Shown: positions 59,327 to 62,814 of the stretch, one piece after another
Numbering within the stretch: the stretch's first letter is position 1
Layout of the letters: the number at the start of each line of letters is the position of its first letter
Origin: Apophysomyces variabilis
Taxonomy: Eukaryota > Mucoromycota > Mucoromycetes > Mucorales > Mucoraceae
Assembly: GCA_002749535.1 (NCBI GenBank)
Contig: MZZL01000409.1
Span: 3,716,775 to 3,780,774, forward strand
DNA: 64,000 bases
Direction: 5' to 3'
Translations under genes and position numbers: made by a program
The notes under the pieces: model-generated
What the model was told of the DNA's origin: nothing
The model's input: only the letters and a program-made list of their open reading frames with translations
Database searches by the model: none

Positions 59327-60829
59327 AAGTAGTAAAGGAAATAAGGGGAGAAAATAAAAAAGAGGTTAAGGGAAAAAGAAGAGAGGAAAAGATCCCACTT
59401 TAAGTCATGCGATGGAGCTAATTTTTTTTGTTAGGTCGCACCAACCAATTTCTGGCCTCTATTTCCCTTTCCAAAGGAGGTCTGTGATATCTTTTCTCTT
59501 GCTCTCTCTCTCTCTCTATCTCACTATATAACCTTTTTATCTCTTTTTTGTGTACTATTCAATGTCCATCTTGTTTTATGTCCACCTCCTTAAATGGACC
59601 AATTTGCACTTTCTTTAGCATATCCCTTAAATCGAAACCTGTCATGTGCATGGAAATTGTTGCTCACATTGTCGGAGACTCAATCTACCGGAGTCGGTTG
59701 CACGTCACCCGTTATCAACGGATGATTCTTCTTTTTAGTCTTCAGCCCTGTAAGAAAGCAAAAATGATCAGATGTGAAAATAGAAACGAAATCCATAGAG
59801 TTTTCATTATTGGTGTCTCTTTGTTAACCTTGACCTCCTTTTGCTTGTCTGCAAGACGTCATGAAATTAGGCAGATCGTACAATCAAGGATAAACACCGA
59901 AAAGCATTTCCTGGATTAATATGCAGATCGTCATTCTATGCACTTACTGCTATCAAAAAAAAAAAAGAAATGCTGAGCTGCTTTGTTTTCTTTGTTTGTT
60001 TGCCTCATGGATTTTCAGCAAACAGGATTAATGGACCTGTGCTCCAACTCCGAATTATCGGTACTTTACATCATTGCCCGATAAATGACGATCCAAGACT
60101 TACATTGCTTTTGAATCATAAAAAGAATCTCGGGAATCGTCGTTCTATTCCTTGCACAATAAACATATAAAGTGGCTATTTCTTACTTTTGCCCTGCAAC
60201 AAAAATATAACTTATTCGAAAGATAGAGGATTGGAAAAGGAAAGGATAGCTCGAACGGATCGGACGGAAATGGGATGGACCAGACCGAAGAAACGTTGTA
60301 CTGCATAACCATAGTCCTATTCATGGTATATATACAGGAAACAGAAGCCATGCACGGATGGTTCAACTGACTTTAGGTTTATGGGGACGTTGGCCAACTG
60401 ACCTGAACCCATGGTACACACTATACCATTCGACGACCGAAGTCAACAAGACTGATTTGCCACTTGGTTTCATTCTAGTCTCATGCAGATAGCTTACTCT
60501 TATCTATAAGGTTTGATATAGCACATGTTCTACCTTCAGGAGGATCTGCAATCAATTTAGAATATTCAGTTCTTCGGGAAAAGGTATTATATATGGTTAT
60601 GCCTTCGGCCTGTATGACTCTGCCTATACAGTGAGTTCTGTTAAAACTCTGATTCTTTCTCTGGTTGGCTAACAATTTTGTTAGCGTTGCGACTCGGGTC
60701 ACCATCGCCTATTAAGCCCTGTCGGGTTATATTTTCAGATCCCGCACCGCACAGAGTCCGAAGCCCGTCCCAACCGTCAAGACCACGCTGACGGCTCGTC
60801 TCAAAGATCCCTCCTTTTTTACAATCACC
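59327..60829. promoter_or_regulatory. Divergent region between the CLIP gene and RPS3
   Basis: About 1.5 kb, promoters for both genes. A (CT)n tract lies at about 59497-59522. No coding sequence is recognised. Confidence 0.5.
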
Positions 60830-61995
60830 ATGGCCGCTGCCGCTGCGCAAATCTCCAAGAAGAGAAAGGTAAAATCAACGGATGGATGGATGGATGGATG
60901 AACAGAACAATACTGATGGTCATGATCATTACTTTCATTTGGCAATTGCTTCCTTCCTCTTTTATTTTGGCACTTTGACTCTGCTGTTTGATCCTCATTG
61001 TCTTCCCATTGATGCGTTCGATCTCTTACTGCATAACCTTCTTGTATCTCACTTGTTTCGTTGACTCGGCCTCGCTCTTTTATCTGGTTACCTACTATTA
61101 GTTCGTAAGTATCAACAAAGAAACGGGTGGCAAGAGTGAACCATGCTCATGGACTTCGTTTAGGTCGCTGACGGTGTTTTCTACGCTGAACTCAACGAGT
61201 TCTTCACCCGCGAATTGGCTGAAGATGGCTACGCTGGTGTTGAGGTCCGTGTGACTCCTGCCCGCACTGAGTAAGTTGAATGTTATTACGATGTTATGGG
61301 AGGAAATGCTGATCGTCTGCTTCCTCTTTTCCTATTAGGGTCATCATCCGTGCCACCCACACCCAGAACGTCCTTGGTGAGAAGGGTCGCCGCATTCGCG
61401 AGTTGACCACCCTCGTCCAGAAGCGTTTCAAGTTCCCTGAGAACGCTGTCGAGCTGTACGCTGAACGTGTCCAGAACCGCGGTCTTTGCGCCATTGCTCA
61501 GTGCGAGTCCGTCAAGTTCAAGCTTCTCAACGGTTTGGCCGTCCGTCGGTAAGGGGATCGTGATTAAAAGGAGAAAACAAATGTAATGGTATACTTATTC
61601 GATGTATAATTTATAGTGCTTGCTACGGTGTCGTCCGTTTCGTTATGGAGTCTGGTGCCAAGGGTTGTGAGGTTGTCGTCTCTGGCAAGCTCCGTGCTGC
61701 TCGTGCCAAGGCCATGAAGTTCGGTGACGGTTTCATGATCCACTCTGGTCAGCCCACTCGTGACTTCATCACCACCGCCGTTCGTCACGTTTTGTTGCGC
61801 CAGGGTGTCCTTGGTATTAAGGTCAAGATCATGTTGCCCAGCGATCCCTCTGGCCGCAGCGGTCCCAAGGCTTCTTTGCCCGATATTGTCACTATCCTTG
61901 AACCCAAGGAGGAGACTGCTATCGCAGAGCCTATCACTCAGGACTTTGCTGCCCCCGCTGTCGCTCCCGAACAACAACCTGTGGAAGCTCAGTAA
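60830..61995 (+). CDS. 40S ribosomal protein S3 (uS3)
   Basis: A core small-subunit protein at the mRNA entry. Five coding exons are proposed: 60830-60868, 61102-61104 (3 bases), 61164-61270, 61339-61548 and 61617-61995. They total 738 bases, 245 residues. Exon 1 encodes [13 protein letters not shown], the 3-base exon TTC gives Phe, and exon 3 opens [14 protein letters not shown], restoring the near-invariant KKRKFVADGVF. The KH-type domain ([14 protein letters not shown]) and the C-terminal domain ([39 protein letters not shown]) are intact. Every splice site is GT..AG. Skipping the microexon leaves the frame open but deletes the conserved Phe. Codon use is highly biased. Confidence 0.95.
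61102..61104 (+). other. Candidate 3-nt microexon of RPS3
   Basis: TTC is bounded by TATTAG on the left and GTAAGT on the right, both strong splice signals. Introns of 233 and 59 bases flank it. It adds exactly the Phe that family members have between KRK and VADG. RNA evidence has not been seen. Confidence 0.8.
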
Positions 61996-62319
61996 AAATG
62001 CATGTTGTAATAAACTCTTGTTTTTTGCTTGGTATATGATGAGAAAAGAAGACATGGTTCTTTTCTTTTTTTTTTTCTTTGCTATTAAGTTGTGTTGGAG
62101 AAGGTTGACCAATGATGCAGCTTGCTTAGCAGGTGACACACCGCAGTTCACGGCATCAATGTATTTTTTCCTCATTTTGAAACCCAACTCCCTTTTTTTT
62201 TAATTTTTTTTTTTGTCTTTCGTTATTTAGGATATCTGCATCTCTCTTTTCCTTCTTCTCTTCTCAATTCCATATTATTGCTCTATTCTTCTTTTCTTTA
62301 TCCCTTCATCAAATTCAAC
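61996..62319. other. Short intergenic region between RPS3 and a small gene
   Basis: RPS3 3' UTR and a T/C-rich leader of the next gene. No other gene. Confidence 0.6.
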
Positions 62320-62814
62320 ATGGCTAGTGGGACGGAAAAGGATTATCCATTGCCCGGTGCTTATTGTAGTCGACGATCTTCGTATGAGAATGAACCTGCG
62401 GCACTTTCGCTTTCTATCATGTCACCGGTATTTTTCCCTAGTCATGGTGATTGTATCATGGTCAAACGGAGGCGAAGTTCTTCTAGACGATTGCCTGGTG
62501 CATGGGTCGAAGAGGACGAACATGTGTATGATCGATCCAATATCCATTTAGACGAGCTAAGGCAAACAATTGCAACTCTACGCAAAGAAACACAACAGCT
62601 CGAAGAAACAGATGTCTTATTGAAGAAGAGCATTCAGATTGTGGCTCGTAAGCGCCAGTTGGTTAAACACAGACGAAGAAAACAATCGCAGTGGGTTTGG
62701 TGCGATGATCAGCAGACCACGGACGAGGAAAATGATGAGGACTATTTAGGTATGCATGACGATCAACGTGTTCCTCCCGCCGACGTCCTTCTTGATGATT
62801 GGGAATGGGTGTAA
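62320..62814 (+). CDS. Hypothetical coiled-coil protein
   Basis: A single-exon gene of 164 codons with a good ATG and a C/T-rich leader. I do not recognise the family. The N-terminal 70 residues are polar and Ser/Arg-rich (KRRRSSSRRLPGAW). A helix predicted to coil runs from about 78 to 118, with a heptad-like Leu/Ile pattern (LDELRQTIATLRKETQQLEE). It is followed by basic KHRRRKQ and an acidic, Asp/Glu-rich end finishing in DDWEWV. Codon use and composition look coding. The acidic-basic arrangement may suggest a nuclear protein, but this is a guess. Confidence 0.65.
   Translation: MASGTEKDYPLPGAYCSRRSSYENEPAALSLSIMSPVFFPSHGDCIMVKRRRSSSRRLPGAWVEEDEHVYDRSNIHLDELRQTIATLRKETQQLEETDVLLKKSIQIVARKRQLVKHRRRKQSQWVWCDDQQTTDEENDEDYLGMHDDQRVPPADVLLDDWEWV

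Follow-up and report, generated by a model that had tools for sequence, protein, structure and literature searches.

In the fungus Apophysomyces variabilis (Mucorales), the RPS3 gene very probably contains a constitutive coding exon of only three nucleotides, the single codon TTC at positions 61102-61104 of the stretch of DNA analyzed here (64,000 nt of contig MZZL01000409.1, hereafter the window). Such an exon is probably common to the Mucoromycotina and often mis-annotated, a proposal based, for the other species, on protein sequences. We regard the exon as probably constitutive, shared and mis-annotated because of its layout in a diverged paralogue, the rarity of the 12-mer YAGTTCGTAAGT, the pattern of gaps in Mucoromycotina proteins and an environmental sequence (P0019).

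Structure of RPS3 and Borders of the Probable TTC Exon

Joined with TTC included, the five exons of Table 1 encode a complete RPS3 protein of 245 aa that contains the motif KKRKFVADGVF. This protein scores 242.7 bits with the NCBIfam equivalog uS3_euk_arch (TIGR01008), for which the cut-off is 150.25, and also lies above the cut-offs of the Pfam families KH_2 and Ribosomal_S3_C, which places it in the uS3 (RPS3) family. TTC is flanked by TATTAG (61096-61101) and GTAAGT (61105-61110), and splicing of position 60868 straight to 61164 keeps the frame and loses only the Phe. Thus, the original prediction is borne out in these respects: TTC lies between the two splice motifs, its inclusion rebuilds KKRKFVADGVF and its exclusion deletes the Phe without a frameshift. 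With 3' and 5' splice sites on its two sides in both the window and the paralogue, this internal segment would be a microexon (a coding exon of at most 30 nt). Its Phe is residue 11 in yeast numbering.

Table 1. Predicted features of the RPS3 gene, in positions of the window.
Feature	Position	Strand	Length (nt)	Remarks
Coding exon 1	60830..60868	+		13 residues, ends KKRK; last codon AAG, phase-0 boundary
Intron 1	60869..61101	+	233	donor GTAAAA, acceptor TATTAG; GGAT-rich stretch right behind donor
Putative exon TTC	61102..61104	+	3	single Phe codon, residue 14 of the protein
Intron 2	61105..61163	+	59	donor GTAAGT, acceptor TTTAG
Exon 3	61164..61270	+		opens with VADG (first codon GTC)
Intron 3	61271..61338	+	68	GTAAGT...TTAG; position common to the paralogue
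Exon 4	61339..61548	+		
Intron 4	61549..61616	+	68	not in the paralogue
Exon 5	61617..61995	+		includes the stop codon

Intron 2 has a candidate YTNAY motif, CTCAT, 14 nt upstream of its end. A search of 60000-62500 against Rfam gave no match to an intron-hosted RNA up to E = 1, and there is no tandem repeat scoring above 50 in 60300-62300. Intron 4 of the window copy, missing from the paralogue, was gained or lost after the duplication.

As a chance test we made 20,000 dinucleotide shuffles of the region between exons 1 and 3 (295 nt in the window, 207 nt in the paralogue). AGTTYGT arose in 2.0 and 2.1% of the shuffles, respectively, YAGTTYGTRNGT in 0.005 and 0.01%, and YAGTTYGTAAGT in none and 0.005%; given these frequencies, the bare AG-TTY-GT is weak evidence of an exon and the full splice consensus is not. 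Possible second exons were also enumerated in both RPS3 copies (in-frame, stop-free, 3-60 nt, AG/GT borders). Each copy yielded two candidates, and TTC alone was common to both. The others, AAACGG in the window and a 51-nt segment in the paralogue, are each in frame but unshared with the opposite copy. An acceptor for exon 3 further upstream is ruled out by an in-frame TAG immediately 5' of GTC.

The 12-mer YAGTTCGTAAGT has 10 sites in the 38.7-Mb genome (seven forward, three reverse), two of which are the RPS3 copies, whereas its reversed control pattern has 15 forward and 14 reverse sites. When the eight other sites were translated, one (L013) proved to be an ordinary first-exon donor, in an apparent eIF6 gene.

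A Diverged Paralogue Retains the TTC Segment

A second RPS3 gene is found at G000:C95:1170551-1171326 (minus strand; 126 contigs in the genome), and at the level of sequence it is the strongest test of the TTC exon. Its layout is AAGAGAAAG/GTTTGG...CTGCAG/TTC/GTAAGT...TTGTTAG/GTCGCC, with slashes at the exon-intron borders, and TTC lies between the same residues as in the window copy. The two proteins share 233 of 242 aligned residues; the genes differ at 44 of 127 fourfold-degenerate sites. The window copy has 233 nt in intron 1 and 59 nt in intron 2, the paralogue 92 and 112 nt, and neither intron can be aligned any longer between the copies: their scores (-14 for intron 1 and 7 for intron 2, against maxima of 0.5 and 14.5 among 300 shuffles) are inside the shuffle range, slightly over the mean. 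The copies are not saturated everywhere, since intron 3 still aligns with a score of 24, over all 300 shuffles (maximum 20.5).

Within these inter-exon regions, the longest exact match between the copies is AGTTCGTAAGTA, which comprises the microexon and its splice sites; exact matches of at least 12 nt anywhere occurred in 11 of 2,000 shuffle pairs of the two regions. The best gapped local match is a GGAT-rich stretch, with a score of 27 that 17 of 2,000 shuffle pairs attained, compared to 24 for the microexon. This low-complexity stretch lies shortly 3' of the exon-1 donor in both copies, at 60879-60903 in the window and in intron 1 of the paralogue (L009, minus strand), and may act as an intronic splicing enhancer or be mere simple sequence.

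Elsewhere in the genome, an ORF of 280 aa (L003 1420-2262, minus strand, G000:C75) has a weak match to Ribosomal_S3_C (30.1 bits, below the cut-off), and is perhaps the mitochondrial uS3 of A. variabilis.

The Residue Before VADG in Public uS3 Proteins

We compiled the best 120 of 6,343, of 2,365 and of 6,296 protein matches, together 231 distinct proteins, all of them representatives of clusters at 90% identity. The list drawn from 2,365 matches came from a query without the Phe, chosen to favour Phe-less proteins. Among these 231 listed relatives, the position preceding VADG, or a variant of that motif, is occupied by Phe in 184, Leu in 33, Ile in three and Ala in three; five proteins have a one-residue deletion, one has Asn (P0213) and two (P0214 and P0216) are unscorable, as they begin at or past this residue. 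Inclusion of TTC thus gives the conserved protein, with Phe in 184 of the 231 and Leu, Ile or Ala in 39 more. All five PDB alignments shown also have the Phe. The claim that KKRKFVADGVF is nearly invariant holds for the presence of a residue, mostly a hydrophobic one, but not for its identity, given that Phe itself accounts for 184 of the 231 listed proteins and Leu for 33.

Six of the 184 proteins with Phe lack the usual basic motif ahead of it (P0011, P0048, P0052, P0065, P0079, and P0215) and are probably products of broken gene models. The proteins with Ala are P0051, P0061, and P0166 (two of them from Dactylellina and Orbilia), whereas nearly all other listed proteins have a large hydrophobic residue here.

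This conservation bears on the idea that AG-TTC-GTAAGT is a recursive splice site, through which one long intron is cut in two steps and TTC is removed in the end. The acceptor and donor are indeed juxtaposed as in ratchet points; however, the ratchet points described in PMC4674806 belong to long introns, the regions concerned here span only 295 and 207 nt, and removal of TTC would break a conserved protein at a conserved residue. We therefore consider recursive splicing extremely improbable and retain the reading of TTC as an exon.

Gene Models of Mucoromycotina

All five Phe deletions (KKRK-VADG) among the 231 listed relatives fall in Mucoromycotina, and the deletion occurs in no other scorable protein of this set. 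One is in Rhizopus stolonifer (P0121) of Mucorales; the remainder, placed by NCBI taxonomy, are in Apophysomyces sp. BC1034 (P0001) and Helicostylum pulchrum (P0008) of Mucorales, Umbelopsis sp. WA50703 (P0007) of Umbelopsidales and Endogone sp. FLAS-F59071 (P0110) of Endogonales. In Jimgerdemannia (Endogonales; P0213), 31 unrelated residues stand between KKRK and VADG and look as if a gene predictor had bridged introns. Altogether, the 13 named Mucoromycotina proteins (P0001-P0009, P0055, P0110, P0121, and P0213, from 12 species, among which Bifiguratus was placed by NCBI taxonomy) have the Phe in seven models, its deletion in five and unrelated residues in one. The seven models with Phe may have the tiny exon annotated or may reflect a simpler gene.

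P0019, an environmental sequence, is represented by three contigs from JGI, none longer than 1,041 nt; they are cDNA-sized and have an uninterrupted frame. It agrees with the Endogone model P0110 at 242 of 243 aligned residues, contains the Phe and is without a 12-residue insertion that the model carries further on. The simplest reading is that P0019 represents a spliced transcript, its RNA origin being suggested by length and open frame, from a species nearly that of the Endogone model, and that the genome model would then mis-splice the gene twice, once by omitting the Phe codon. The 12 extra residues of P0110, near LAVR, resemble an unremoved intron, as does a longer extra stretch near LAVR in P0213 of Jimgerdemannia. 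We scanned genome and viral contig collections for RPS3 DNA of these relatives and found none there; one of the queries began with translated intron.

The KKRK-VADG form of five public models could be taken at face value, with a single intron in these genes, a residue truly lost from the uS3 of these fungi and AG-TTC-GTAAGT as a chance or non-functional remnant. We consider this very unlikely. If the element were a remnant under no constraint, its exact preservation in the paralogue would be surprising, since introns 1 and 2 can no longer be aligned between the copies. The Phe is present in seven of the 13 named Mucoromycotina models and in the Endogone-like P0019, and outside the five models the deletion is absent from every scorable protein of the 231 listed. 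Instead, the absence from five public Mucoromycotina uS3 models of a residue present in nearly all others listed is likely a systematic error. The splice-site sequence, the AG/TTC/GTAAGT of the paralogue and the one-residue gaps in Mucoromycotina models hence support the 3-nt exon that was originally predicted, although the accompanying statement that standard gene callers cannot find it was too strong, as seven of the 13 named models contain the Phe.

Proposed Splicing and Origin of the Exon

In both copies, two phase-0 GT-AG introns surround one Phe codon. Since splice sites 3 nt apart could not be occupied at once, the spliceosome would take out the two introns one after another, by intron definition; sequential removal has also been proposed for APC11 and its 1-nt exon (PMC4674806). 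Either order of removal would keep TTC in the mRNA, and the codon would be lost only if the exon-1 donor paired directly with the exon-3 acceptor, giving an in-frame protein without the Phe. A 3-nt exon would be exactly the exonic half of a U1 site, and TTC in place of MAG would offer U1 snRNA no pairing, which would explain a downstream donor with the full GTAAGT. This sequence is present on the intronic side of TTC in both copies. At the exon-1 donors the situation is reversed, with AAG before the cut and GTAAAA (window) or GTTTGG (paralogue) after it. Measured against MAG/GTRAGT, a general consensus and not the genome's own, the exon-1 donors match at 7/9 and 6/9 positions and the TTC donors at 6/9 and 6/9; because these totals are similar, neither donor is called stronger overall.

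Historically, an older intron between Lys and Phe (K/F) was likely joined by a second one gained 3 nt downstream (F/V) in an ancestor of Mucoromycotina, which would have stranded one codon as an exon. The glomeromycotan gene models P0065, P0079, and P0052 restart at the Phe or just ahead of it. This hints weakly at an older K/F intron, as these are protein models and not DNA.

Comparison With Known Tiny Exons

In the truffle Tuber melanosporum, the NACHT-ankyrin (nank) genes have codon-sized (3-bp), alternatively spliced microexons (Iotti et al., 2012, via PMC4986451, PMC3689799, and PMC10197012). Thus, the 3-nt size is not new for fungi. The nank exons resemble that of RPS3 as 3-nt coding exons in a fungus, but there are many of them per gene and their alternative splicing diversifies an ascomycete receptor family, whereas RPS3, a housekeeping gene of Mucoromycotina for a ribosomal protein, has a single one, which is probably part of every transcript. 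Very short fungal coding exons are also reported in P450 genes of Phanerochaete chrysosporium (2-10 codons, the shortest 6 bp; PMC1184071), in this case in a variable gene family.

In plants, exons of 1 nt are described in APC11 (PMC4674806) and VPS55 (PMC8831610), so that the earlier description of 3 nt as near the minimum possible needs trimming. These resemble the RPS3 exon as ultra-short exons of conserved genes missed by annotation, and share with it a conserved donor GTRAGT (VPS55; PMC8831610) and a proposed sequential removal of introns (APC11; PMC4674806); they differ in that skipping of 1 nt changes the frame, while skipping of 3 nt is frame-neutral. Plant microexons are reported to be widely mis-annotated (PMC8831610). 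The 9-nt exon of potato invertase, a constitutive tiny exon as that of RPS3 probably is, but longer and from a plant, undergoes two-step removal with the second intron first (PMC4674806). Among animals, 3-nt exons are known in mouse Ncam and Drosophila TnT (cited in PMC8042270); they too are single, frame-neutral codons, although the TnT exon is tissue-regulated and the RPS3 exon is probably included constantly.

In the fungal papers PMC3990503, PMC8022950, and PMC4462047, microexons appear, in the available text, only as an aligner setting. Among the papers listed on microexons, judged by title or by selected passages, we recognized none that describes such an exon in a fungal ribosomal protein gene. 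To the known cases, RPS3 adds an essential ribosomal protein gene in which one codon forms an exon by itself, probably a constitutive one; the two diverged paralogues have both retained it, and so, probably, has a subphylum.

Possible Role of the Codon

The microexon codes for the first residue after KKRK. In yeast Rps3, KKRK (aa 7-10) serves as a nuclear-import signal, and the Yar1-binding site (aa 11-30) follows it without a gap (PMC4740875). Skipping of TTC would shift the import signal and the Yar1 site by one residue relative to each other with the frame kept, and the Phe-less product would probably escape nonsense-mediated decay, because there is no frameshift.

This arrangement lends some appeal to TTC as an alternative cassette exon, with Phe-plus and Phe-minus uS3 both made and perhaps tuning the junction of KKRK and the Yar1 site. 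Skipping is in frame, the two elements adjoin directly in yeast, and 3-nt exons are alternatively spliced in Drosophila TnT and in the truffle NLR-like family (PMC8042270 and PMC10197012, respectively). Nevertheless, we think regulated inclusion unlikely: the full GTAAGT is present in both copies, the residue occurs in nearly all listed relatives, the sequence revealed no sign of regulation, and gene prediction accounts better for the five Phe-less models. A constitutive exon remains our preferred reading.

A further and rather doubtful suggestion is that the codon exon has been kept subphylum-wide since before the split of Mucorales, Umbelopsidales and Endogonales, and that its skipping yields a minor uS3 form, such that splicing fidelity sets the pool of import-competent uS3. 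If this were true, the nuclear-import signal of the skipped form would be displaced by one residue relative to the chaperone-binding helix. The probable TTC exon would allow one to ask, in a natural setting, how spliceosomes cope with sites separated by 3 nt when the gene needs very high expression.
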